This document shows positions 673-31,610 of a DNA stretch of 44,331 nt, piece after piece. The notes below the pieces were generated by a model. It was given only the letters and a program-made list of their open reading frames with translations. It had not been told where the DNA came from and did not search any database. Numbering within the stretch: position 1 is the first letter of the stretch; each line of letters opens with the position of its first letter. Source of the stretch: a virus; IMG/VR virus record IMGVR_UViG_3300011440_000014, positions 1 through 44,331 of that record; one strand, given 5' to 3'. The translations under genes were made by a program, and so were the position numbers.

Positions 673-1138
673 GGTATTCCTTGAAGAGTTGTACGGCCTT
701 CTCGTTGGGGTGCCCGATACGGTTGAGAGCGTCCCGTGCTGTAGCAACCACCTTCTGCATGGTCTGGTTACCCAGCCATGTCTCGCGGCGGGCGAACAGG
801 AAGCACTCGAACATATCGGCCCACTCCAGGATATGCTGTTCCTCCCGGTTGAGGCCCTGGCAAAGGTTGTGCTCGAAGTTGAACGCTTCCTCTACATCCT
901 TCGCTGCCTCCTTGAGGTTGTAGTTGTCCCTCTTGGCGGTGTAGGGGATGTCCCCCGTTCGGCACTCCCCCAGGTCGTGGGTCAGAGCCGCCATGAGCAG
1001 CTGGTACCCCTGGGGGTAGATGTGGTTCACGATCATAGCTACACCCCACTGGTGCTCGGCTAGGTTCTGCTCCTTGATCGTGACCTGGGTATGGTACCTC
1101 TTAATGGTACCAGCTTCGTACTTAGTCCTGAAGTCCAT
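665..1138 (-). CDS. HD-domain 5'-nucleotidase (YfbR-like)
   Basis: 157 aa, the size of one HD domain. It shows the metal-binding series H29 (AEHQWGVA), H54-D55 (ALTHDLGE), GDIP at 62-65 and D108 (EWAD), as in YfbR-type 5'-deoxynucleotidases and related phosphohydrolases, which remove phosphate from deoxynucleoside monophosphates in the cytoplasm. It overlaps the TS-family gene by 17 bases. In phages that replace thymine, a nucleotidase commonly lowers competing dTMP or supplies the right nucleoside pool; that role here is inference from context. Other HD hydrolases, such as a dNTP triphosphohydrolase or MazG-like partner, are less likely given the size. Confidence 0.8.
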   Translation of the reverse strand: MDFRTKYEAGTIKRYHTQVTIKEQNLAEHQWGVAMIVNHIYPQGYQLLMAALTHDLGECRTGDIPYTAKRDNYNLKEAAKDVEEAFNFEHNLCQGLNREEQHILEWADMFECFLFARRETWLGNQTMQKVVATARDALNRIGHPNEKAVQLFKEYHG

Positions 1139-2114
1139 ATGCGTCTTCCCATTTGCGGCGGTTAAGCCATTGTTTACAGGCCGTCCTCACCTCCAAGTCC
1201 GCGATGTCGTTACACGCCTCTAGGGCCTGTATCTTTCGCTTGTTCTTGTAGAACCTGTACGCCGTCAGCATAGGCCTGAGGACGAGCAGGATGAAGGGGT
1301 TAGTGAACTGGTCCTGGTCGGGGGAGCCGATCCACTGGGTCAGTTCGTACAGGTCGTAGGGGTTGCCGAACCGCACGATGGGGATGTGGCTGTTGATCAG
1401 CTCATCGCTGTAGTAGGGGCAGTCCTCAATCTCTTCCAGGAGGTCAAAGTGCCTCTCGTAGATATGGAAGTTGTTGCTGAACTGTACGTAGTGCCCTACT
1501 TCTACCCCGAGGGTATCAGCTACGAACTCCTGGAGCATCGACATGTGAACCACGTTGGCCCCGTAGGCCCCCCAGATCATGTCGTTGCTCCGGTTGGTCA
1601 CGGTCATGTTCAACTGGCCGTTGACTATCTCGAAATACACCCCGGTATTACAGGGGATGTCCTTCATACCGCCCACGATCCAGTCCTGGTCCACCTCGGG
1701 GTCGAACATCTGGAGCACGGCCCGCCTGGAATGGGGGTCGGACCTCAGATGGTTGACTATCCAAAGTAGTTGGTCGTGTCCAAAGTGGTTCCTCCAGCGG
1801 TGGCCGTAGGCGCCATGGAGGGTAATACCATCGTCGGAGAATTGGGTGATGTTCGTATTGAACGCCATGATCCACCCGACATCGTTGCGCCCCGCGAGCA
1901 TCCACACGCCCTCGAAGATGTGGAAGAAGGGGTTGGCGTCCCGCTTCGGGTCCAGGAGCATCCTCTCCTTGGGGTGGGTGTAGGTGGTTGCCACCGGCCC
2001 TAGGATACGTCTGACCCTGCCATTTCTTGAATGCTGCTCGACCCCCATCACCTTCATCTTCCAGAGGGCTTCGGGGTAAACAGTGTTTACGTTACGACCC
2101 AGAATGTCTAGCAT
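1122..2114 (-). CDS. Thymidylate synthase / dUMP (or dCMP) hydroxymethylase family enzyme
   Basis: 330 aa with the TS fold landmarks: E68 in FEGVWMLAG, R129-R130 (SRRAV), catalytic C155 in DIPCN, and the nucleotide-binding stretch NRSNDMIWGAYGAN at 174-187. The NRSND-IWG-YGAN form differs from cellular TS (QRSxD-LG-PFN). It is the form I associate with phage enzymes that methylate or hydroxymethylate dUMP or dCMP using methylene-tetrahydrofolate. An Asn (N187) near the base-selecting position favours a uracil substrate, but a one-residue shift makes the alignment uncertain. With the DNA kinase and transferase-like genes upstream, making 5-hydroxymethyl-dUMP is the attractive role. Plain dTMP synthesis cannot be excluded. 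It overlaps both neighbours by 17 and 23 bases. Confidence 0.85.
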   Translation of the reverse strand: MLDILGRNVNTVYPEALWKMKVMGVEQHSRNGRVRRILGPVATTYTHPKERMLLDPKRDANPFFHIFEGVWMLAGRNDVGWIMAFNTNITQFSDDGITLHGAYGHRWRNHFGHDQLLWIVNHLRSDPHSRRAVLQMFDPEVDQDWIVGGMKDIPCNTGVYFEIVNGQLNMTVTNRSNDMIWGAYGANVVHMSMLQEFVADTLGVEVGHYVQFSNNFHIYERHFDLLEEIEDCPYYSDELINSHIPIVRFGNPYDLYELTQWIGSPDQDQFTNPFILLVLRPMLTAYRFYKNKRKIQALEACNDIADLEVRTACKQWLNRRKWEDAYGLQD

Positions 2115-2393: not shown

Positions 2394-2966
2394 CTAGTCA
2401 GGGCGGTAATTAGATGCCATCCAGCCTCTCCAGTGGACGACTCCTGAGGGCAGGAGGGGATGGAATGTACCTATGGGAGGCCGTGTGTTATTCTGCCTGT
2501 CCCACTCCAGATTCTCCACCACAATCTTGTCCTCGGCGGCGGTCTCCATGTACGCCTCTATGGCAGCGTGGGCTAGCCGCAGGTTCTCTGTAGTTGCGAA
2601 GAACTCCAATGTCTGGGTGGTCTCGTGCTTCAGGCTCGACTTCACGTACATGCCCGGGTAGTTCTCGAACATGTCGTAGGGGTAGGAGCAGAGCCACTTG
2701 GCCCCGTAGTCTGGGAAGTAGCCGCTGTTATGCTCCATCCACAGCCTGTAGTATTCCAGGTAAGCCCCCTGCTTCTCGGTGGGGGCGTTGAACGCCACCT
2801 CCTGGAGGCTACTGGCGGTGGTGTATGTGATTCGCGCTGTCGCGGTATCGACCCAAGAGTTGAGGCCTCTATGGATGGGGGCTATATGATTCAGGTCCAT
2901 ATAGGTCATCATAAAGACCTCCTTGGAGCAATCCATCTTAGCGATGATCTTGCGTATGTGCTTCAT
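2394..2966 (-). CDS. Hypothetical protein of the hypermodification operon (190 aa)
   Basis: Last gene of the 6217-2394 operon, joined to the transferase-like gene by a 4-base ATGA overlap. No recognised domain. It is rich in aromatic residues (a stretch around 85-105 with GYFPDYGAKW and MFENYPGMYV) and has three Cys and many His, as in a small-molecule enzyme or thymine-island protein, but no catalytic motif can be named. Strict coupling to the gene for the 278-aa putative transferase suggests it works with that protein. Confidence 0.65.
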   Translation of the reverse strand: MKHIRKIIAKMDCSKEVFMMTYMDLNHIAPIHRGLNSWVDTATARITYTTASSLQEVAFNAPTEKQGAYLEYYRLWMEHNSGYFPDYGAKWLCSYPYDMFENYPGMYVKSSLKHETTQTLEFFATTENLRLAHAAIEAYMETAAEDKIVVENLEWDRQNNTRPPIGTFHPLLPSGVVHWRGWMASNYRPD

Positions 2967-3799
2967 ACCTGGTACTTGTTCTTCAGCCGTTCATCGAAGT
3001 GCTTAGCCCTGATGTACTTGCTCAGTTCACAGAGGCAGTTCTGGGTGTTCTGGGCGCAGAGGGTAAGGCCCACCTTCGTGTGAATGAGGTCCCGGATCAC
3101 GTTGACCTCCGCTATGAAGTTGGGGACCGGGATGGTCATCGTGCGGGGTCGCTCGTGGATGAAGTTGAGACCCATCTGCGAGCCGGGGCCAGGAGCACAC
3201 CACGAGTACCAGTCATTCGCCTGGGAGAGGTGGTCCGTATGCTTCAGGTCGGCTATGACCTGGGCCACAAGGAAGGTCCCCATACCTGGGGTAGCAAGCG
3301 TCCCCGCCGCGAAGCTGAGCATGGCGGGCCTGGCCCCAATGAACCTACGGCACATGTACGCAGCCCCGTCCAGGACGCGGGCAATGATCACCTGCTTGGT
3401 CTCCCCGCCAGCGGAGTAGCCGCCCGTCACCATGTAGGCCCCGGTCCAGGACTTGAGCCCCTTCTCCTTGCGCTTGTCGAAGGTCTCAATGAAGTGCTGG
3501 CGGTACTCCGGTGTCCACCCCTTATGCGGGTAGCCCAGTTCCTCCAGAGTCTCCGGCCAGTTGACCAGGCGGGCGATACACATGGCTATGGGCAGGTTCT
3601 CGTCCGACAGGCCGTGGGGCATGAAGTTGTTATGGATCCAGCGCGTGACCTTGTCATGCTCGCGGCGGACGTTACACCACCTGTTCCCTGCCATGATCGG
3701 GTCCTCAGAGTAAGGCGGGTCCCACTGGTCGTTCTCCTTGCGCCGCCGTATGGCCTCGCGCTCATTGATCCAGTAGTATAGATCGTTGAGATACTTCAC
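2963..3799 (-). CDS. Putative thymine-hypermodification helical protein (aGPT-PPlase/HMUDK-helical type)
   Basis: 278 aa with a GTG start that shares a GTGA overlap with the upstream 38-aa gene. Two stretches fit the family first predicted as alpha-glutamyl/putrescinyl-thymine pyrophosphorylases, later tied to 5-hmdU DNA kinases: the N-terminal NRWCNVRREHDKVTRW (39-54), and a second half with GMGTFLVAQVIADLKHT followed by a GPGSQMGLN loop. These proteins act on 5-hydroxymethyl-dU in DNA, replacing an activating phosphate group with an amine or amino acid or assisting the kinase. The assignment is from remembered motifs, not a search. The separate kinase gene at 4464-5000 in the same operon supports it. 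The final base made cannot be deduced. Confidence 0.6.
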   Translation of the reverse strand: MKYLNDLYYWINEREAIRRRKENDQWDPPYSEDPIMAGNRWCNVRREHDKVTRWIHNNFMPHGLSDENLPIAMCIARLVNWPETLEELGYPHKGWTPEYRQHFIETFDKRKEKGLKSWTGAYMVTGGYSAGGETKQVIIARVLDGAAYMCRRFIGARPAMLSFAAGTLATPGMGTFLVAQVIADLKHTDHLSQANDWYSWCAPGPGSQMGLNFIHERPRTMTIPVPNFIAEVNVIRDLIHTKVGLTLCAQNTQNCLCELSKYIRAKHFDERLKNKYQV

Positions 3800-4113: not shown

Positions 4114-4467
4114 TTAGTGACCTCCAAGAATCTTCTCCAGGTCATTGACGTCCACCATCATCATGGTCATGCCCCTGCCGTGGCCCCCGGCCTTGTTCAG
4201 CATCTCGGTGAGGTAGTTGTTCGCGTAGTCATTGAAGGCGGCGAACTCCAGAGGGAACACGATCTGGCCATTCCTCTCATAGTAGTAGTCGGCGCGGATG
4301 GCCATTGAGCCCTCCGGCAGGGGCTTCTGCTCTATCTGATTCCACTGGCACCCCGAGGCGTTGAAGATCAGCGTATCATGGAGCTGATGGAGGTCGCCGT
4401 GGATCCACTTGTTTTGTTCAGTGTCGAGGAAGTCAGCGCCGGTGATGAGGCAACGAAGCGGGTTCAT
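4114..4467 (-). CDS. Hypothetical protein (117 aa)
   Basis: ATGA overlap with the kinase gene at 4464-4467. Features: an N-terminal CLITGADFLD, a middle WIHGDLHQLHDTLIFNASGCQWNQIE with several His, and a Gly/Met-rich stretch GGHGRGMTMMMVD near residue 93. No known domain is identified. Its place between the DNA kinase and the transferase-like gene makes a role in base modification plausible. Confidence 0.6.
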   Translation of the reverse strand: MNPLRCLITGADFLDTEQNKWIHGDLHQLHDTLIFNASGCQWNQIEQKPLPEGSMAIRADYYYERNGQIVFPLEFAAFNDYANNYLTEMLNKAGGHGRGMTMMMVDVNDLEKILGGH

Positions 4468-5000
4468 AGTAACTCCAGTAGTTGGGGGGCCATGGGTTGG
4501 TCGTGTTTAAGGACTACGACACGGTGAGTCCCGCCTTCCAACTTGCGTCGGATGGCGTCAATCGTCTTATGCTTGTCCCGGGTCAGGTCGGGGTTGAACT
4601 TGTTATTCCGCCCTGACGACGCCCTACGGGCGATTACCCTTTCCAGACAGAGGTCGATAGGGGTGTCCAAGAAGGCGTAGATGTACTTGTCTCCGTAAGG
4701 TACGGAGTGCTGTCCCATACGACCGTAGTAGGTGCTCTGAAGGAGCCCCTCGAACACGATGTTCCCTAGCACGTAGTACTTCTCGATGAGCTTGATAACG
4801 GTATCAGCGCTGTCGATAGTGTCCACCCCTCCGCAGGCCTGCTCGTAGGAACCCAGCGTGAATAGGTCGGGGCCGAGTCGCATGGCCTCCACCTTGCCGT
4901 TCATGCCGATGATAGGCATGGGCTTGTCTTTCATGAGGGAGCGGACGGCAGTGCTCTTACCGGAGCCGGAACAGCCGTGAATCTTAATGATCTTATTCAT
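4464..5000 (-). CDS. P-loop nucleotide kinase, probable 5-hydroxymethyl-dU DNA kinase
   Basis: 178 aa P-loop kinase. Walker A GCSGSGKST at 9-17, a GSYEQACGGVDTIDS segment at 50-64, a hydrophobic VFEGLL strand at 82-87, and a LID-like RVIARRASSGRNNK at 121-134. The CGG-D-T segment after a GxY is what I recall of the phage P-loop kinases shown to phosphorylate 5-hmdU within DNA, rather than dTMP or dNMP kinases, which carry DR-Y motifs. The reaction would be ATP plus 5-hmdU-DNA giving 5-phosphomethyl-dU-DNA, the activated intermediate for hypermodification. It overlaps the SAM-fold gene by 8 bases. A free-nucleotide (hmdUMP) kinase is the main alternative. Confidence 0.75.
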   Translation of the reverse strand: MNKIIKIHGCSGSGKSTAVRSLMKDKPMPIIGMNGKVEAMRLGPDLFTLGSYEQACGGVDTIDSADTVIKLIEKYYVLGNIVFEGLLQSTYYGRMGQHSVPYGDKYIYAFLDTPIDLCLERVIARRASSGRNNKFNPDLTRDKHKTIDAIRRKLEGGTHRVVVLKHDQPMAPQLLELL

Positions 5001-5580: not shown

Positions 5581-5993
5581 GAGAACTCTATGCCCTTTGC
5601 GAAATCAGGGTCGGTCCAGCCGGACTCGGGGACAGCGTCTGGCATCCCTTCGTACAACTCGAGCATTGAGACAATATAGGGCTTGAACCCGAACCGCCTC
5701 TCATACTCCGTACAGAGGTCCACCGCGTAGTAGTACAGCCACCCATAGTGCTCGTGGGAGTCCATGGCCCACTTGACCCAGGGGTGGTTAAGGTCCACCG
5801 GGGCAAAGGTTGACTTACCCCCGATAGAGCAGGAGGTGGCGGTGTCCCATTTGAACACCTTGGGTTGGAGAAGATGCCACACCGCCGACAGATGGACAGC
5901 GGCCCGGATAGGGCCGTTGATTATCCAGTCGTCGGATAGACCCTCAACCAATTCCTGGGTTTTCTCCCCAGGGTAGAGAAGGTCGAGGCTCAT
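5577..5993 (-). CDS. Conserved phage hypothetical protein (138 aa)
   Basis: The C-terminal half, HPWVKWAMDSHEHYGWLY then LCTEYERRFGFKP then MPDAVPESGWTDP, follows a pattern I recognise from many phage hypothetical proteins: HP-x-V-x-W, a helix ending in CxEYxxRYGK, then a proline-rich tail ending in an acidic Pro-containing motif. The function of that family is unknown to me; placement next to DNA-modification genes recurs. The stop overlaps the next start by ATGA, and the start shares one base with the preceding stop. Confidence 0.65.
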   Translation of the reverse strand: MSLDLLYPGEKTQELVEGLSDDWIINGPIRAAVHLSAVWHLLQPKVFKWDTATSCSIGGKSTFAPVDLNHPWVKWAMDSHEHYGWLYYYAVDLCTEYERRFGFKPYIVSMLELYEGMPDAVPESGWTDPDFAKGIEFS

Positions 5994-6217
5994 TACCAGA
6001 GCACCACGCGATCAGCCCGCGCAATCGCGTCTTCCCGGTTCATATGAACACCGGGCAGGGTAAAACGGGTAGAGTCCAGGTCATCCCGAAGCTCCAGCCA
6101 GTACATACCGATCAGGGTATTAAAGTACACCTTCACGGTCATCGGACGCTGGAACCGTTCCCCGACTCGGCGCGCATGAACAACCTCGTCATGCTCTTCA
6201 ATCTTAGCGGTAACCAT
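5993..6217 (-). CDS. Hypothetical protein (74 aa), first gene of the hypermodification operon
   Basis: First cistron downstream of the promoter at 6244-6249, with an AGGAGA Shine-Dalgarno sequence 8 bases before ATG 6217. Small soluble alpha-beta protein (EVVHARRVGERF, then TVKVYFNTLIGMYWLELRDD), no recognised domain. A one-base TAATG overlap couples it to the 138-aa gene. Confidence 0.65.
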   Translation of the reverse strand: MVTAKIEEHDEVVHARRVGERFQRPMTVKVYFNTLIGMYWLELRDDLDSTRFTLPGVHMNREDAIARADRVVLW

Positions 6218-6237: not shown

Positions 6238-6252
6238 GCCTCTATTATAGGC
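6238..6252 (-). promoter_or_regulatory. Promoter -10 element of the hypermodification operon
   Basis: Minus-strand TATAATAGAGGC with the hexamer at 6249-6244. Expected transcript start is about 20 bases before the ATG at 6217. No convincing -35 box; the upstream DNA encodes the end of the helicase gene. Confidence 0.65.
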
Positions 6253-6254
6253 GA

Positions 6255-7622
6255 CTATTCCCTGGGAACGATACGTTTTATTGCGTCGTTCAGACGATTT
6301 TGAGTGCGGTCTTTCCCAGCTAGGGCAGCCACTACATCCTCGTCCTTCGTGTTCTCGGCTACGAGGTGATGTACTGAGACTACGGGGGACAACTGTCCCT
6401 GGCGCCAGATACGGGCGATGGCTTGCTGGTACAACTCTAGGTCCCAGGTTATACCAAACCAGCAGATGTCCTTACATGCCTCTTGTAGGTTCAGGCCGTG
6501 GCCCATGGACCGGGGGTGCCCTATCAGGAGGGGTATCCGCCCGGCATTGAACTCGTTGATAACGTAGGCGACATTCTTGACCTGGCCGATATTCACGGCC
6601 TGGGGGAACGCTTCCATGATCCGAGCGCCGTCATCGATGAACTCGTAGCAGACCAGTAGAGGCCTGCCTTGCATTTCCTCATAGAGTTCCCGCAGGGCCT
6701 CAATCTTCTCATCGTGGAGTCGATGAGCAACGTGTTCCTCGTCGTACAGGAAGCCGTTGGCCACCTGGCGTAGCTTCGTCCCCAGGGCGGCGGTATTGAA
6801 CACCGCCACGGTCTGTTCCTCTAGTTGGAGCAGGAAGGTATGCTCCAATTCCTTGTACTTGGCGTACACCGGAGGGGCCAGCTTGATAGGGATGTAGTTG
6901 TTAATGAGCTCCGGCATGTCGAGGTGGTCCTTGGCCATTAGGCGCAGGAGCTTCCCCGATACACGCTCATAGATGTCCGTAGCCGAGTTGGGGGCCATGA
7001 GCCACGTAAACCCATCGTGGGACTGGTACATGTACCGCTGGCGGAAATGGGTAATGTACTTGCCCAGGGCGACCCCCATGTCGCATACGTACATCTGGCC
7101 GAATAGGTCCGCCAGCCCATTAGGTGCCGGCGTACCCGTTAGGATGATCCGACGCTTGAAGCGGTGGAGTTCCTTCTTCAGGGCCTTAAAGCGCTGAGTC
7201 TGGCTATCCTTGAACTTCGTGCTCTCGTCCACGACTAGCATATCTAGGTCCACCCACTTCCAGGGGTCCAACTCCAGTAGCCGGGTCAGGGACTCCGGGT
7301 TGATCACGTAAACATCGTAGCCCCTACGGAGCATGTCCACTCTGGTCTCCCGATCCATCTCAGTGAGGTCGCAGATCGTCATGTGCTTGAAGTCTTCCCA
7401 CTTATGGGCCTCGACTGGCCAGACGGTCTTTGCGACCCGGAGGGGGGCCACTACCAGGGTATGGTGTATGTGCCCTTCCTCCTTCAGGAACATTGCGGCC
7501 GCTAGGGTAACTGAGGTCTTCCCCAGGCCGGGGTCGAGCAGAAGCCCGCTATGGGGCTTCTCCATGAGCCACCGTAGGGCGACTTCCTGATACGACCTAG
7601 GATTCCAGGGGACCGCGTTCAT
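6255..7622 (-). CDS. SNF2/DEAD-like superfamily 2 helicase
   Basis: 455 aa from ATG 7622, which has GGAG 7 bases upstream; a longer in-frame start would overlap the previous gene by over 110 bases. Motif I DPGLGKT (about 28-34), motif Ia VVAPLRVA, motif II VVDESTKF (DEST box), motif III ILTGTPAPNGLADLFGQ, and motifs V-VI at the C-terminus (IGHPRSMGHGLNLQEA, then QQAIARIWRQGQ) are all present, so both RecA domains look intact. Phage helicases of this type translocate on duplex DNA during replication or recombination. Overlaps the previous gene by 26 bases. Confidence 0.9.
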   Translation of the reverse strand: MNAVPWNPRSYQEVALRWLMEKPHSGLLLDPGLGKTSVTLAAAMFLKEEGHIHHTLVVAPLRVAKTVWPVEAHKWEDFKHMTICDLTEMDRETRVDMLRRGYDVYVINPESLTRLLELDPWKWVDLDMLVVDESTKFKDSQTQRFKALKKELHRFKRRIILTGTPAPNGLADLFGQMYVCDMGVALGKYITHFRQRYMYQSHDGFTWLMAPNSATDIYERVSGKLLRLMAKDHLDMPELINNYIPIKLAPPVYAKYKELEHTFLLQLEEQTVAVFNTAALGTKLRQVANGFLYDEEHVAHRLHDEKIEALRELYEEMQGRPLLVCYEFIDDGARIMEAFPQAVNIGQVKNVAYVINEFNAGRIPLLIGHPRSMGHGLNLQEACKDICWFGITWDLELYQQAIARIWRQGQLSPVVSVHHLVAENTKDEDVVAALAGKDRTQNRLNDAIKRIVPRE

Positions 7623-8391
7623 ATTGACTCCAGTCTTGCTTCGGGGGTAGGTACTGTAGCAGGTCCGGGTACTGGGCCAGCTGCTTATACTTTGAGTCAA
7701 CGTCGTCACCGATGGTATGGGTCTTCGTAATGAAGTAGCCCTTCATCATACAGAGGACCGTCTCAGCCTCTGGGTAGGAGCAGGGGCGGTCGAAGCTGGG
7801 GGGTGCCTTGAACTTCCGCACGTAGTCAGTGACTATCTCCATGGCGTCATGGAAGTGTAGCTCTGGCCAGATGATCTTAGCGCATTTGCGCGGATCGTCG
7901 GGGCAGTGCTTCACCGCGTCCTCTAGGGTAATGTGAATGGGTCGTCCCCAGACACGATCCTGGAGGTCCATGACCTTCCATACGAAGTATGGGCCGAAGC
8001 CGCAACCGTGGAAGTTGGTCTTGAACGTCTTGATCAGGGCATCGTAGTTCGGGGCGTACATCTTGTCCCAGATGTCCATCGGCGTACCGTGCCTGGCTAG
8101 GTTGGTTATGAACTCAAGTCCCTTCACCCCTCTGCTATGCCGGCGCTCGGTGCCTCTGGCGAATATCTGGTAGTTGCCCACCGTGTACTCCCAGAACGTG
8201 CTCTGAGTCGAGCACCGCGCCGCCTTCACTGCTTCCCCTAGGTCATAGAAGCAGAGGTAGTGTATGGCGAACTTGGTTGCCCAGTCGTTCCCGTTCGCCT
8301 TGCGGGCGTTATACAGGAACACGTAGGACGGGTCCAGGTCGTTCGTCTCAATCGTGATTTTTGCGAAATCTCGCCAGTTGGATACTTTCAT
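7597..8391 (-). CDS. Putative amino acid/amine:DNA transferase (ADDT / aGPT-PPlase-like)
   Basis: 264 aa. N-terminal WRDFAKITIETNDLDPSYVFL (6-26), a middle GTERRHSRGVKGLEFI, and GCGFGPYFVWKVMDLQ (129-144), followed by a segment with H and PDDPRKC. The DPxY start and the G-x-G-x-F-x-x-x-K-x-x-DL helix resemble the second branch of the thymine-hypermodification superfamily (putative amino acid:DNA transferases), which would displace the phosphate on activated 5-hmdU. This is motif memory, not a search. The gene lies outside the kinase operon but in the same leftward block and overlaps the VRR-NUC gene by 44 bases. Having two different superfamily members suggests either two steps or kinase-helper plus transferase. 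Confidence 0.55.
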   Translation of the reverse strand: MKVSNWRDFAKITIETNDLDPSYVFLYNARKANGNDWATKFAIHYLCFYDLGEAVKAARCSTQSTFWEYTVGNYQIFARGTERRHSRGVKGLEFITNLARHGTPMDIWDKMYAPNYDALIKTFKTNFHGCGFGPYFVWKVMDLQDRVWGRPIHITLEDAVKHCPDDPRKCAKIIWPELHFHDAMEIVTDYVRKFKAPPSFDRPCSYPEAETVLCMMKGYFITKTHTIGDDVDSKYKQLAQYPDLLQYLPPKQDWSQYERGPLES

Positions 8392-17507: not shown

Positions 17508-17563
17508 GTCACTCTCTGGTAAGCGTTGACTAAGTAATGGTTTGTGTCCCTACGGGGAAGTCT

Positions 17564-17585
17564 GGTAGGATAGGGGGTAGGATAG
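17564..17585. repeat. Iteron-like direct repeats
   Basis: Two copies of GGTAGGATAG separated by two G. The 7-mer TAGGATA recurs inverted at 17621-17627 and 17629-17635, and AGGATAG again at 17718-17724, giving five related sites in about 160 bp. Confidence 0.75.
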
Positions 17586-17623
17586 TGTAAGTCTTTGATT
17601 TATAAGGGGATTTTGGCTGTTAT

Positions 17624-17728
17624 CCTACTATCCTACTGTCCCTACTATAAAAGTTATATATACGACTCGTGGGCATTACTCTCTCCTAAAAGCGATTTTT
17701 GGCACCGTAGGGACAGAAGGATAGTAGG
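17624..17728. repeat. 22-bp inverted repeat flanking AT-rich DNA
   Basis: 17624-17645 (CCTACTATCC, TACTGTCCCTAC) is the reverse complement of 17707-17728 (GTAGGGACAG, AAGGATAGTAGG) with one mismatch. The 61 bp between start TATAAAAGTTATATATACGA-like and are AT-rich. It could extrude as a cruciform or bind an initiator. Confidence 0.8.
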
Positions 17729-17948
17729 GGAGAAACTGCGTCTCTCAGCACACCACAGGAATTGTTTGGCATCTTTGGCACGCCTGGCAAATTCAGGTAA
17801 AACGCACTACAGCAACGCTGTGTGTGCTGCCCCCTCTGGCGCCTGTAGACGGTGTCTGCTACAGCCGCAGCACAGGCCCATAGCGCAGCGCTATCGCAGC
17901 AGCGCAGCCATAGGCACAGGCTATCAGCATGCGTGCTGTGCGGGCTTG

Positions 17949-17957
17949 TGTGGATAA
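17949..17957 (-). promoter_or_regulatory. Consensus DnaA box
   Basis: Minus strand reads TTATCCACA, an exact match to the bacterial DnaA R-box. It is followed within 20 bp by AT-rich CCCCTATTATATCCTG. It suggests host DnaA participates in initiation. Confidence 0.65.
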
Positions 17958-17973
17958 AATCCGGCATATCCCC

Positions 17974-17984
17974 CTATTATATCC
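17974..17984 (-). promoter_or_regulatory. Orphan leftward promoter-like element in the origin region
   Basis: Minus-strand TATAAT (17981-17976) followed by AGGGGG, the same element as the gene promoters, but with no credible gene directly after it. It would transcribe across the DnaA box and the repeats; a priming or regulatory RNA is possible. Confidence 0.4.
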
Positions 17985-18190
17985 TGTTTTTCCTGCCCCG
18001 TCTAATTGTATTTTCCTATCGCAGCGTTGCTGCTCATAGCTGCGGGCTATGCTGCGCTGCCTCGCGCCCACCGCCTCCCCCGCCCTCCCACCCCTATTCT
18101 ACCCTATTTTCGGGTGTAAGTCTAATAGATTTCAGCTATAGGACCGATAGAAAATTTCTATGCTCGAGACGGTTTTTCCACTCGAATCCC

Positions 18191-18201
18191 CCTATAATAG
18201 A
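18191..18201 (+). promoter_or_regulatory. Promoter -10 element of the island gene
   Basis: CCC-TATAAT-AGAGCC, hexamer 18193-18198, about 90 bases upstream of ATG 18287. No -35 box. A 13-base dyad, TAGAAAATTTCTA (18148-18160), is centred about 41 bp upstream of the -10, a spacing similar to that of the palindrome at 14605. Confidence 0.65.
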
Positions 18202-18202
18202 G

Positions 18203-18235
18203 CCTAGGACGAAACGATAAGCGAATCGTCCTAGG
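18203..18235 (+). other. Leader stem-loop of the island gene
   Basis: CCTAGGACGA and TCGTCCTAGG form a perfect 10-bp stem around a 13-base loop, beginning about five bases after the -10 hexamer. It would be the 5' end of the transcript. Confidence 0.75.
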
Positions 18236-18286
18236 GGATTTTCCCCGAGCCCGCCTAGGGGGTTTACCCTAGTAAAGAGAGTAAAA

Positions 18287-18769
18287 ATGCGTAAAGTTTT
18301 CGTTAACGGTAATCTTTCCCTCGTCCGCGTTCTTTCCCCGTTCGCCTATAAAGACCCGATTAAAACCCTCGATAAATCGAACGAGGCCCGCGTTACCCTC
18401 GACGGCGTTAGGGTCTTTCGCTCGGCCGTTACCTCGGGCCGCGACGTTAAAAACGCGAACGGCGGACTAAAGTTTCATCTTTACTTCTATAGTTCTAAAG
18501 ACGCCGCCGAGGCCCGCGATACGTCGCGCCGCGAGTTCTTTCCTATTACCGCCGAGGAGTTTCGGGCCTATAAAGACGATCCGGCTTATACTATCGAACT
18601 AGTTACCGCGACCGGGCTCGAAAAAGCGGAAACGGAAGTACTACCCGACGGCGTAAACGAGGCCGTTCGTTCCGAGGAAGCGATTTTCGTTACCGTTTCG
18701 GAAACGGAAGTACTACCCGCCGACGAGCCCGCGAACGAAGGTACTACCCGTAAGTCGCGTCGGAAATAA
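18287..18769 (+). CDS. Orphan protein encoded without CA or TG dinucleotides (160 aa)
   Basis: No family recognised. Residues 1-105 look like a folded alpha-beta domain (KVFVNGNLSLVRVLSPF, LKFHLYFYSSKDAAEARD, RREFFPITAEEFRAYKDDPAY). The rest is acidic, with two EVLP repeats (ETEVLPDG and ETEVLPAD) encoded by an exact 21-base repeat 72 bases apart, and ends TTRKSRRK. The protein has no Gln, Cys, Trp or internal Met and one His, just the residues whose codons need CA or TG. Codons ending CA or TG (GCA, CTG, GTG, TTG, ACA, CCA, TCA) are never used, and Lys is AAA rather than the AAG favoured elsewhere. AAGAGAG precedes the ATG. It stands alone between the origin-like region and tandem terminators. 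Confidence 0.8.
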   Translation: MRKVFVNGNLSLVRVLSPFAYKDPIKTLDKSNEARVTLDGVRVFRSAVTSGRDVKNANGGLKFHLYFYSSKDAAEARDTSRREFFPITAEEFRAYKDDPAYTIELVTATGLEKAETEVLPDGVNEAVRSEEAIFVTVSETEVLPADEPANEGTTRKSRRK

Positions 18770-18775
18770 AAGTAC

Positions 18776-18797
18776 TACTACTCCCTAGGGAGTAGTA
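18776..18797. repeat. 22-bp perfect palindrome after the island gene
   Basis: TACTACTCCCT followed by its exact reverse complement AGGGAGTAGTA. It lies between the stop codon (18769) and the terminator; it could be a second RNA hairpin or a protein-binding site. Confidence 0.85.
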
Positions 18798-18803
18798 CCT
18801 AAG

Positions 18804-18837
18804 TACCCGATAGGTAATCCCTATCGGGTATTTTTTT
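18804..18837 (+). terminator. Rho-independent terminator 1
   Basis: Perfect 11-bp stem TACCCGATAGG / CCTATCGGGTA with a five-base loop, directly followed by seven T. It ends the island gene transcript. Confidence 0.9.
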
Positions 18838-18845
18838 CGTTAGGT

Positions 18846-24617: not shown

Positions 24618-25628
24618 ATGGCATTCCCCAATAATGCGATTACCGACATCATCGCTACGACCATTCAGAGCCGCACCGGCCAGATCGCGGACAACGTGAC
24701 GTCCAACAACGCCCTGCTGACCAAGCTGAAGAAGCGTGGCAACATCAAGACGTTCTCGGGCGGCAACGTCATCATGCAAGAGCTGAGCTTCGCGTCCAAC
24801 GGCAACGCCGGCTGGTACAGCGGGTATGAGACCCTGCCCATCGCGGCGCAGGACGTTCTGAGTGCAGCTCAGTTCGACATCAAGCAGGCTGCTTGCCCAG
24901 TGACGATCAGCGGTCTGGAGCAACTCCAGAACGCGGGCAAGGAGCAGATCATTGACCTTCTGGACGCTCGGATGGAAGTTGCCGAGTCGTCCATGGCCAA
25001 TCTGCTGTCGTCTGGACTGTACTCAGATGGTACTGCTGCCGGCGGCAAGCAGGTCGATGGCCTGAAAAAGCTGGTGGCCGCGGTTCCCACGAACATCGTT
25101 GGCGGCATCGACCGCGCCACGTGGCTGTTCTGGAAGAATCAAGTCGTCAGCGCTTCCGGCGCCACGGCTGCGACCATCCAGGGCAAGTTCAATGAGATGT
25201 GGGCCAAGCTGGTTCGCGGCTCGGATCGCCCCGACCTGATCCTGGTGGACAACCTCACTTGGTCTCTGTACATGGCTTCCCTCCAGGCCATCCAGCGCTT
25301 CTCCGACACCGAGACAGCCAAGCTGGGCTTCGTCAGCGTCAAGTACATGGACGCCGATGTGGTCCTCGACGGCGGCATGCAGATCAACTGGTCCTCCACC
25401 GGCGCTGCCGGAACGACCCCTGAATCTGTCCCGATCGGTGCCGGCAATGCGTACTTCCTCAACACGAAGTACATCCACTATCGTCCGCACTCCAGCCGGA
25501 ACATGGTCCCCCTGTCCCCAGGTCAACGCTACAGCGTGAACCAGGACGCGGCTGTCCAAATCCTGGCCTGGGCGGGGAACATGACGGCCTCTGGCCTCCA
25601 GTTCCAAGGCCGGATGACCTCCACCTAA
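24618..25628 (+). CDS. Major capsid protein (HK97-fold type)
   Basis: 336 aa, strong AGGAG site upstream. The sequence begins MAFPNNAITDIIATTIQSRT with TSNNALLTKLKKRGN; a central VTISGLEQLQNAGKEQIIDLLDARMEVAESSMAN helix (spine-type), a P-domain region LILVDNLTWSLYMASLQAIQRF, and MNFDG-like VVLDGGMQI. The end, HSSRNMVPLSPGQRYSVNQDAAVQILAWAGNMT, is usual for podophage coat proteins. Position after the scaffold fits. No protease gene is evident, so cleavage is unlikely. Confidence 0.9.
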   Translation: MAFPNNAITDIIATTIQSRTGQIADNVTSNNALLTKLKKRGNIKTFSGGNVIMQELSFASNGNAGWYSGYETLPIAAQDVLSAAQFDIKQAACPVTISGLEQLQNAGKEQIIDLLDARMEVAESSMANLLSSGLYSDGTAAGGKQVDGLKKLVAAVPTNIVGGIDRATWLFWKNQVVSASGATAATIQGKFNEMWAKLVRGSDRPDLILVDNLTWSLYMASLQAIQRFSDTETAKLGFVSVKYMDADVVLDGGMQINWSSTGAAGTTPESVPIGAGNAYFLNTKYIHYRPHSSRNMVPLSPGQRYSVNQDAAVQILAWAGNMTASGLQFQGRMTST

Positions 25629-28626: not shown

Positions 28627-30215
28627 TCCCCTTCATGCCCGTCGCCTTAGAGGCTATCAACAAGCCAGAGAGCGTTGCTGCACCCGTAGGGGGCATCAAC
28701 GCCAAGGACTCGCTTGTTGCTATGCCTGAGACCGACGCGGTGCTGATGCAGAATTGGTGGCCCCAACCCTACGGCTGTACCGTGCGGAAGGGTTTCAGGG
28801 AGTGGGCTATTGATATGCCCTCCAGCGTAGACACCATAGCCCCTTGGGCTGACCGTACCGGGACTCAGAAACTGTTCGCATGGTCCGGCGGTAACGTGTA
28901 CGACATAACCTCGCCAGGCTCTGCTGTTATCACGCCCATTAGTGGGCTCACCAACTCGGTCTGGGACTACACTAACCTCGTGAACGCAGCGGGTAGTCAC
29001 CTCATAGCCCTGAACGGCATTGACGACGGCATTATCTACAATGTAACGGGTGCGCGTATAACTCTGGGCGACGGCATTGTAGCCAATACTTGGAAGAATA
29101 TCAGTCCCAAGGACGCCGTATGTCCCTGCGTACACCAACACCGTCTTTGGGTGGTGGAGAAGAACACTGCTAACGGCTGGTTCCTCCCCCCGGATGCTGT
29201 CCAAGGTGCGTTCATTAAGTACGATTTTGGTCCGTTGTTTTCGCGTGGTGGTTTCCTACAGTTCTTAACGACCTGGACACTTGATGATGGCTCGGGAGCA
29301 ACGGACCACCTCATAGCCTGTTCCTCTCGGGGAGAGGTGGTGGTGTACGAGGGTATTGACCCTGAGGATGACATGAACTGGAAGCTCACTGGTGTGTACT
29401 ACATCGGTGCTCCAGTGTCGGGTCGCCGCGCCTTCTGTAAGGCGGGCGGGGACCAGTTCATCCTTACCCAGCAGGGCCTAGTCTCTATGACTGCTGTCCT
29501 GACATCCACCAAGGTATCGGAGGCACCAGGTAAGGTCAAAACGGACAAGATTCAGTTTCTCTTGTCTGAGTTGGTGTCCACCTTCTCAGTGGCCTACGGA
29601 TGGGACTTGAAGTACTACCCGAAGGACAACATGCTTATCCTCAACGTGCCCTCGGTCACGGTGGGCGGTAACATACAACTGGCGGCTAACCAGATCACCA
29701 ATGCCTGGACTGAGTTTGTAGGCATGGACGCATCCTGCTGGGGATTCTTCGGCTCCACACCTATGTTCGGGAACTTTGAGGGCAAGGTGTACCAGGCCTG
29801 GGTGGGTAATTCAGATGCGGTTAGGCTCGACGGGGGTGGTGGACAGGGCATCGTAAGTCGGGTCCAGCAGGCCTACTCCTACATGGGTGCCCGCGCCGTA
29901 CAGAAGCAGGTGGGCATGTATAGGCCTGTGTTCGTAGTGACGGACCCGGCCTCGTTCCACTCCACTATACGGTACGACTTCAAGCCAGAGTTGCTTACCA
30001 TACCCGGCCCGCTTCCGGTCAGTGGTAATTCCCTGTGGGGCATCGGTACTTGGAATGAATCCCTATGGGGCGGCGGGGATACGGTTCAGAAGCAGTGGAT
30101 ACAGGCGAATGGCATGGGTGTAGCCGCCTCGCTGCTAATGGTTATGAAGACTGAAGGAGAAGTACTGTGGGTGGCCACTGACTACTCTATCACTGGTGGA
30201 TGGGGTCTATTTTGA
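28623..30215 (+). CDS. Tail protein, probable nozzle (tail tubular B-like)
   Basis: 530 aa, ATG 28623 sharing ATGA with the adaptor gene. N-terminus includes PVGGINAKDSLVAMPETDAVLMQNWWPQPYGCTVRKGFREW, the signature start of podophage tail-tube/nozzle proteins (GG-x-N-x-x-D-x-x-x-x-M-P-x-x-DA-x-x-x-x-N-W). It is beta-rich throughout with propeller-like repeats (WADRTGTQKLFAWSGGNVYD; VAYGWDLKYYPKDNMLILN; WTEFVGMDASCWGFF). With the adaptor it would form the DNA exit channel. Confidence 0.75.
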   Translation: MIPFMPVALEAINKPESVAAPVGGINAKDSLVAMPETDAVLMQNWWPQPYGCTVRKGFREWAIDMPSSVDTIAPWADRTGTQKLFAWSGGNVYDITSPGSAVITPISGLTNSVWDYTNLVNAAGSHLIALNGIDDGIIYNVTGARITLGDGIVANTWKNISPKDAVCPCVHQHRLWVVEKNTANGWFLPPDAVQGAFIKYDFGPLFSRGGFLQFLTTWTLDDGSGATDHLIACSSRGEVVVYEGIDPEDDMNWKLTGVYYIGAPVSGRRAFCKAGGDQFILTQQGLVSMTAVLTSTKVSEAPGKVKTDKIQFLLSELVSTFSVAYGWDLKYYPKDNMLILNVPSVTVGGNIQLAANQITNAWTEFVGMDASCWGFFGSTPMFGNFEGKVYQAWVGNSDAVRLDGGGGQGIVSRVQQAYSYMGARAVQKQVGMYRPVFVVTDPASFHSTIRYDFKPELLTIPGPLPVSGNSLWGIGTWNESLWGGGDTVQKQWIQANGMGVAASLLMVMKTEGEVLWVATDYSITGGWGLF

Positions 30216-30652: not shown

Positions 30653-31610
30653 TTACACTCCGCTGGCGGAGAAGACTGCCACCTCTGCTAACGAGGCGGC
30701 TACAGCCACCACGATGCAAAACCGCCCTAACCAGGTGGACATCCATGGTAATACCTCCACCTGGACCACTGACGCGGAAGGTCGCCCGGTACAGACCCAG
30801 ACCCTAGGGGCGGCTGGTCAGCAACAGCTTGACGCGGGCAACGCCCTTGTCTCGGGGGCTCAGGGTCGGGCTACTGACGCTCTGGGTCAGCCGCTGACCA
30901 CCGAGGGTCTGCGGGAGGTGGGCGATTACGATACGTCTCAGCTTCAGGGCGTGGACGCCGAGGGGCTGAGGGCGGGGGCTGGTCAGTTCCAGATGGACCC
31001 GACTGGGAATTCAAAGGAAATCCAGGACGCTACCTATGGTCTTCTTTCGTCCCAAAGGGACCTTGCGCGCAACTCCGAAATACAGCGACTCAAGTCGCAA
31101 GGACTCACCGAAGACTCCCCTGCGTTCCAGAGGGCTATGCTACGTCAGGGACAAGCCGATACGGATGCGCAGCTCAAGTCGCTTCTAGCCGGCACCACGG
31201 AATACGGCAACCAGTTCCAGCGTGGGCTGGCCCAGAACCAGTCCAATTTCGGTCAGCGTAGTGACGCCGAGAAGTTCGCTATGGGTCTCCGCGGTCAGCA
31301 GTTCGGGGAGCAGGGCTCGATGATAAAGGCCGATGCGGATGCTAGGGCTGCGGGCCTGAACGAGCGCGTCGGGCTGAGGAATCAGTCCATAGACGAACTG
31401 ACGGCCCTCAGTAGCGTGCCCCAGGGTAATGGCCCTGCCTTCGGCCAGTTCGCCGGGGCCACCGATCAGCAGGGGGTGGACTACCTAGGTGCTGCCGATA
31501 AGCAGTACCAGGCCAACGTTGGCGCCACCAACGCGAAGAACCAGGGCAAGTCGAACACGATGTCAGGTATAGCCTCTTTGGCCGGCACGGCCGCAATGGT
31601 GTTCCTATGA
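30618..31610 (+). CDS. Internal virion / DNA ejection protein, small (330 aa)
   Basis: ATG 30618 with AGGAGAAG upstream. MGKKSKPPPAPDYTPLAEKTA start, then long polar helical Gln/Ala/Gly-rich region (NRPNQVDIHGNTSTWTTD; SSQRDLARNSEIQRLKSQGLTEDSPAFQRAMLRQGQADTD; YGNQFQRGLAQNQSNFGQR) and a hydrophobic C-terminus (IASLAGTAAMVFL). This is the layout of podophage ejection or internal core proteins, which leave the capsid with DNA. ATGA overlap to the PP-loop gene. Confidence 0.7.
   Translation: MGKKSKPPPAPDYTPLAEKTATSANEAATATTMQNRPNQVDIHGNTSTWTTDAEGRPVQTQTLGAAGQQQLDAGNALVSGAQGRATDALGQPLTTEGLREVGDYDTSQLQGVDAEGLRAGAGQFQMDPTGNSKEIQDATYGLLSSQRDLARNSEIQRLKSQGLTEDSPAFQRAMLRQGQADTDAQLKSLLAGTTEYGNQFQRGLAQNQSNFGQRSDAEKFAMGLRGQQFGEQGSMIKADADARAAGLNERVGLRNQSIDELTALSSVPQGNGPAFGQFAGATDQQGVDYLGAADKQYQANVGATNAKNQGKSNTMSGIASLAGTAAMVFL

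Follow-up and report, generated by a model that had tools for sequence, protein, structure and literature searches.

A transcription unit almost devoid of CA and TG in a phage with a predicted thymidine-hypermodification pathway, and related islands in other phages

Gene content and anatomy of the locus

The window analyzed here is the 44,331-nucleotide stretch of IMG/VR virus record IMGVR_UViG_3300011440_000014. It contains a set of genes for predicted DNA-modification enzymes and, between the primase/helicase gene and terS, a short unit from which the dinucleotides CA and TG are almost entirely missing. The relevant features are as follows:

1122-2114, minus strand: thymidylate synthase homologue, predicted 5-hmdUMP synthase (PF00303, 87.6 bits; phrog_5131, E 3e-108)
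2963-3799, minus strand: HMUDK_hel (PF18723), 5-hmdU DNA kinase helical domain family (104.6 bits, cut-off 25)
4464-5000, minus strand: HMUDK_HMUD1 (PF18748), P-loop 5-hmdU DNA kinase by domain match (37.8 bits, cut-off 27)
7597-8391, minus strand: ADDT (PF18724), amino acid:DNA transferase by domain match (29.7 bits, cut-off 26.2)
17800-18070, no strand assigned: left flank rich in CAGC/GCTG (59 per kb, the genome as a whole having 12 per kb)
18181-18844, plus strand: CA/TG-free island comprising -10 element, leader, coding sequence and terminator (by count; kept in relatives L001-L004)
18191-18200, plus strand: CCTATAATAG, -10-type promoter element (by recurrence of the motif in the window)
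18203-18286, plus strand: 5' leader with short hairpins, CA/TG-free (sequence varies among relatives, avoidance kept)
18287-18769, plus strand: ORF of 160 aa with a conserved core, an acidic region and a basic C-terminal tail
18801-18838, plus strand: intrinsic terminator, CA/TG-free (stem 18801-18833 and T-run; the island ends 6 bp beyond)

From these domain matches the window appears to encode a thymidine-hypermodification pathway like that of the phages M6/PaMx11; its enzyme families are common to the 5-hmdU kinase/ADDT pathways of M6/PaMx11, ViI and phi W-14, and its HMUDK_HMUD1 protein is related to the kinases of PaMx11, Ab18 and Pam3. The hypermodified T of M6, ViI and phi W-14 has been inferred to lie in TG or TC contexts (PMC6449724), and the M6 kinase is reported to act on TG (unpublished, cited in PMC6449724). 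By analogy, the modification would be expected at TG, in either strand, in the present phage.

Between the CA at 18179 and the TG at 18845, direct counting finds one TG (18288, in the start ATG) and one CA (18476, in the sole His codon), whereas all 664-bp windows of the contig average about 83 CA plus TG (SD 12), corresponding to an observed/expected ratio (O/E) of 0.02-0.03. The three longest CA/TG-free gaps of the contig (369, 188 and 109 bp) all lie inside the island, the next longest being 68 bp. The remaining large ORFs of the window show O/E values of 0.87-1.45 for CA and TG and none is affected. CG (1.84) and TA (1.56) are both high within it, which is partly expected once CA and TG are forbidden. 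Synonymous recoding with the codon usage of the genome placed 44 +/- 4.8 CA/TG in the coding sequence (minimum 25 in 20,000 trials) against the 2 observed, and permutation of the gene's own synonymous codons alone, which addresses the codon-junction effect, still gave 25.6 +/- 3.5 (minimum 13). An earlier, sequence-only reading of this DNA had described a 665-bp island with a single TG and a single CA where several tens would be expected, common CG and TA, and a CAGC/GCTG-rich left flank, and had proposed the genome scan and the codon shuffle as checks; all of these descriptions hold, and neither shuffle ever approached the observed count.

The boundaries of the island coincide with the transcription unit, in keeping with the earlier claim that the avoidance runs through promoter, leader, codons, codon junctions and terminator. 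The -10 element TATAATAG (18193-18200) lies within CCTATAATAG, of which the window contains 11 copies with at most one mismatch, against 1.5 expected. Several of these precede gene modules on both strands, among them those at 6242(-), 14562(-), 14640(+), 18191(+), 19028(+) and 24235(+), and CCTATAATAG is probably the shared promoter element of the phage. The promoters of the window seem somewhat TG/CA-poor, for part of which the fixed -10 motif accounts.

The 160-aa protein lacks Gln, Cys, Trp and internal Met and has one His, again as first described. It had no match in Pfam, PHROGs or the PDB, by sequence or by fold (the pLDDT of the model was only 64, which weakens the fold comparison). Neither the window nor the island loci gave Rfam or tRNA matches, and searches for the island in the phage collection, by DNA and by protein, and for its relatives in bacterial genome contigs were likewise negative. 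Imperfect direct repeats, GGAAACGGAAGTACTAC, extend over 18627-18778 from the 3' end of the gene into the palindrome preceding the terminator. Farther upstream, at 17540-17730, the inverted repeats CCTACTATCCTACTGTCCCTAC and GTAGGGACAGAAGGATAGTAGG surround an AT-rich stretch in an origin-like arrangement.

Conservation of the avoidance in relatives of the gene

Four close relatives from IMG/VR, L001-L004, encode proteins 93-98% and 77-78% identical to that of the window, in units where TG is confined to the start codon and CA to that same His codon. Their DNA diverges from the window by up to 22%, and at none of the 175 variable alignment columns (60 of them non-coding) has a CA or TG been created, against the 30-44% of random single changes that would create one; this points to selection rather than to a captured sequence of biased composition. 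Alignment of homologous loci, also suggested in the sequence-only reading, thus shows the rule to be kept through protein drift in L001-L004. It also shows that not all copies of the gene follow the rule. L005, L041 and L043 carry the gene without consistent avoidance (in L005 sense TG is at 0.44-0.51, yet CA is above 1), the situation that the sequence-only reading had named as refuting its proposal, and in G005, which has the same pathway and no island, the gene is unprotected. The more distant L014 has lost only sense CA (0.03-0.04, with TG at about 0.9-1.0); the loss begins near the predicted start of transcription and continues beyond the terminator. A distant relationship to the window protein is probable for the island protein of another genome, G065 (E 4e-4, probability 36%).

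The window and L001 (G001), with the kinase at 4464 and 22975 and the island gene at 18287 and 36698, respectively, look like circular permutations of one map of about 44.4 kb, and both contigs may be near-complete genomes.

Two classes of islands

Relatives were scanned for dinucleotide-free runs around terL, and the 29 strongest runs all concerned TG, CA, TC or GA. The islands of these relatives are without TG/CA or without TC/GA, never another dinucleotide, and where both strands are affected the two missing words are always reverse complements. In the examined relatives, as in the window, the islands are terS-adjacent. In the TG/CA class, L039/G017 has a one-ORF unit and L044/G022 a CA-free unit of three ORFs and 1451 bp; in G022 the depletion is complete across the first three ORFs and fades through the next few hundred bases, a pattern compatible with a first-transcribed unit. 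The TC/GA class comprises G029, G031, G033, G034, L060, L062, L064, L187, L199 and L201, and its strict members encode proteins nearly without Asp or Glu. Neither this class nor the strand asymmetry described below was foreseen in the sequence-only reading.

The island genes belong to several families, namely that of the window, that of L039/L044, a TC-type family (G031/G033/G034 and others) and the G029 protein, which matched none of the other island families. Fold comparison of two island protein families gave no significant match, the structure models being weak; weak winged-helix-like matches (E above 1) were seen for the TC-type family only. In a tree of HMUDK_hel the TG/CA islands fall in two separate clades.

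The island is not obligatory, and most pathway-bearing phages are without one. The pathway is present and no island was found in G005, G009-G012, G014, G016 and others, including G010, G012 and G016, sisters of G017 in which no credible homologue of the G017 island gene was detected. Among M6/PaMx11-type phages, no motif-free island was found in PaMx11, Ab18 (first 50 kb), Pam3 or the relative P26218, and none is described for such phages in the literature searched. In G009, which has the kinase pathway and no TG/CA island, a 300-bp stretch at 31081 is poor in AC/GT (7 against 33 expected). The runs of G070 (GG, GA, CT) and that at the end of contig G092 were disregarded, several unrelated dinucleotides being missing together; a run at the end of contig G096 was left out of the interpretation.

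Just outside the left edge of the islands of L062, L201, L058, L060 and L064, TC/GA is enriched (O/E 1.36-1.85), giving a sharp border. Upstream of the island genes of G034 (reverse complement 28975-29230) and G031 (reverse complement 5856-6110) there are iteron-like repeats with an AT-rich core, themselves TC/GA-poor, which may be exempt replication origins.

The avoided word and the modification enzymes

All island genomes that reach 19 kb carry HMUDK_hel. Members of the glycosyltransferase family TAGT were found in 6 of 33 genomes, and these are exactly the six with TC/GA islands, a coincidence of 1 in C(33,6), or about 9e-7, if kinship is ignored. In 4 of the 6 TAGT genomes tblastn detected neither the P-loop kinase nor ADDT; L199, a 17.6-kb fragment, yielded no modification gene. 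The TG/CA-island genomes carry the P-loop kinase, G022 being a 15-kb fragment without the cluster. A further set of 26 genomes, picked only for HMUDK_hel or TAGT, together with the already-known G063, yielded five clear new islands, none of them crossed. Those of the P-loop-kinase genomes G065, G073 and G071 (2006, 680 and 531 bp) are all of the TG/CA type, sense CA being absent from the whole 2006 bp of G065 against an expected 103, and those of the TAGT genomes G080 and G086 (1393 and about 450 bp) are both of the TC/GA type. Hence TG/CA islands occur in P-loop-kinase genomes and TC/GA islands in TAGT genomes, with no exception.

The two avoided words are also the TG and TC contexts inferred for M6, ViI and phi W-14 (PMC6449724). 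We accordingly hold with considerable confidence that the islands avoid the modification motif of the phage itself. The sequence-only reading had suggested avoidance of some agent or process that targets TG/CA steps in DNA, naming thymine hypermodification first; this gains support from the pathway genes of the window, the literature contexts, the TC/GA avoidance in relatives with other enzymes, and the new genomes, which gave the predicted motif. As to other modifications, 7-deazaguanine as the cause of the GA/TC islands was rejected, since TGT/DpdA (PF01702) was absent from the 20 genomes searched, island genomes included, and present in 14 of 14 controls.

Strand asymmetry

The asymmetric TG-type islands (G006, G017, G022, G065, G071 and G073) avoid sense CA, that is, TG on the template strand, more strictly in all six cases. 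TC is avoided on both strands in G029, G034, G063, G086, L060, L062 and L064, on the template only in G031, L187 and L199, and on the non-template only, with template TC kept, in G033 and G080. T7 RNA polymerase is inhibited by bulky or charged 5-modified U in the template and tolerates it better in the non-template strand, and bulky groups are reported to block bacterial RNA polymerases (PMC11550810). This strand effect would fit the TG class and leaves G033 and G080 unexplained; because of these two a universal template-only rule was not adopted.

A probable hypermodification-exempt transcription unit

The avoidance itself has been observed, as have its conservation, the limitation to two words and the agreement of word with enzymes, and on these grounds we regard the island as probably a transcription unit exempt from hypermodification. 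As predicted from its genes, the phage would replace T by 5-hmdU, which the 5-hmdU DNA kinase would phosphorylate in the TG context assumed from M6, an amino-acid-derived group then being added to the phosphorylated base. If, as the analogy suggests, these uncultured phages are modified at TG and TC, selection would have purged TG from both strands of the unit save where the protein needs one (start codon, His), leaving a gene with almost no hypermodified T, and relatives with the TAGT glycosyltransferase would have undergone the equivalent purge for TC. The most likely reason for the exemption would be interference with RNA polymerase by bulky or charged substituents of T, mainly those in the template strand; the unit would have to be readable from the fully modified DNA entering the cell, and its product would act early. 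The case for transcription as the reason is about evenly balanced, and the template TC kept in G033 and G080 would not be expected if modified template T simply blocked the polymerase.

Ordinary TG/CA frequencies are seen in the remaining early genes of the window, and the explanation therefore needs a further assumption, either that the product is an unlocking factor or that the gene has to be expressed very early. The simplest story would be that the island product is made first and aids transcription of the rest. Tentatively, then, the purged gene or operon might serve as a 'bootstrap', read by the unaided host RNA polymerase, whose product makes the masked remainder readable; that this product unlocks transcription, as a factor letting the host polymerase work on the modified genome, is a guess and somewhat more doubtful still.

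A need for very high expression, with modified T slowing elongation in proportion to the expression of a gene, might also purge a single unit. The island proteins are small and basic-tailed, of a kind that can be abundant, and the template bias of the TG type would suit such a need; against this, the major head protein gene (24618-25628), normally highly expressed, has CA at 1.25 and TG at 1.31, and we consider the explanation unlikely. The position beside terS in the window and the examined relatives, and the origin-like repeats with the TC/GA-poor AT-rich stretch upstream in G034 and G031, would agree with an unmodified stretch kept for replication origins or packaging, where binding proteins need unmodified DNA. 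The avoidance, however, extends over 0.5-2 kb and takes in entire coding genes, codon junctions and terminators; several phages show it on one strand only, and the units affected hold promoters and, in the window, a terminator, making this quite improbable.

A rule at the RNA level, by which transcripts without CA/UG (or UC/GA) would survive a dinucleotide-specific endoribonuclease during infection, could account for island limits that track the transcription unit and for one-strand islands that miss a single sense dinucleotide (CA, GA or UC). However, the reverse-complementary word pairs of the two-strand islands point to double-stranded DNA and the motif tracks the DNA-modification enzymes; we know of no RNase with these alternative specificities, and hold such a rule to be very unlikely. 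Mutation bias (e.g. deamination at CA) or recent acquisition from a genome of biased composition, the latter entertained in the sequence-only reading, can practically be dismissed: TA is indeed raised in TG/CA islands, but so is CG, the TG of the start codon and the CA of the His codon have survived, TC/GA islands show no consistent rise in the products TT/AA or CC/GG, and the rule survives 22% DNA divergence in the relatives and recurs in several gene families.

Comparison with known systems and implications

Restriction-site avoidance in phages reflects selection against short words recognized by a DNA-acting enzyme, usually genome-wide and directed at a host enzyme. The islands resemble it in that short words are selected against, and differ in that one unit only is affected and the word is matched to the phage's own modification pathway. 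In T4 (Alc) and in the hmU-DNA phage SPO1, transcription control favors modified DNA. There, as in our proposal, RNA polymerase behavior depends on phage DNA modification, whereas the island gene seems to escape modification. mRNAs without the cleavage word are resistant to MazF-type enzymes, which act on RNA; here too one gene is purged of a short word and expressed when others are not, but the complementary word pairs and the DNA-modification genes point to DNA in the case of the islands. A search of open-access full text, with subscription journals outside its scope, found no description of modification-motif-free genes, in agreement with the sequence-only reading, which knew of no such phage locus. 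Each of the enzymes has been described before; the exempt unit, to the best of our knowledge, represents a new kind of feature.

Should this explanation be true, dinucleotide purging would provide a sequence-only readout of DNA-modification context in uncultured phages, and the purged unit would point to the gene that the phage must express from modified DNA. DNA modification would also reshape the proteome, Gln, Cys, Trp and Met being exiled by TG/CA islands, and Asp and Glu almost completely by strict TC/GA ones. The way in which a hypermodified phage genome is transcribed while no phage factor has yet been made would thereby become a directly testable question.
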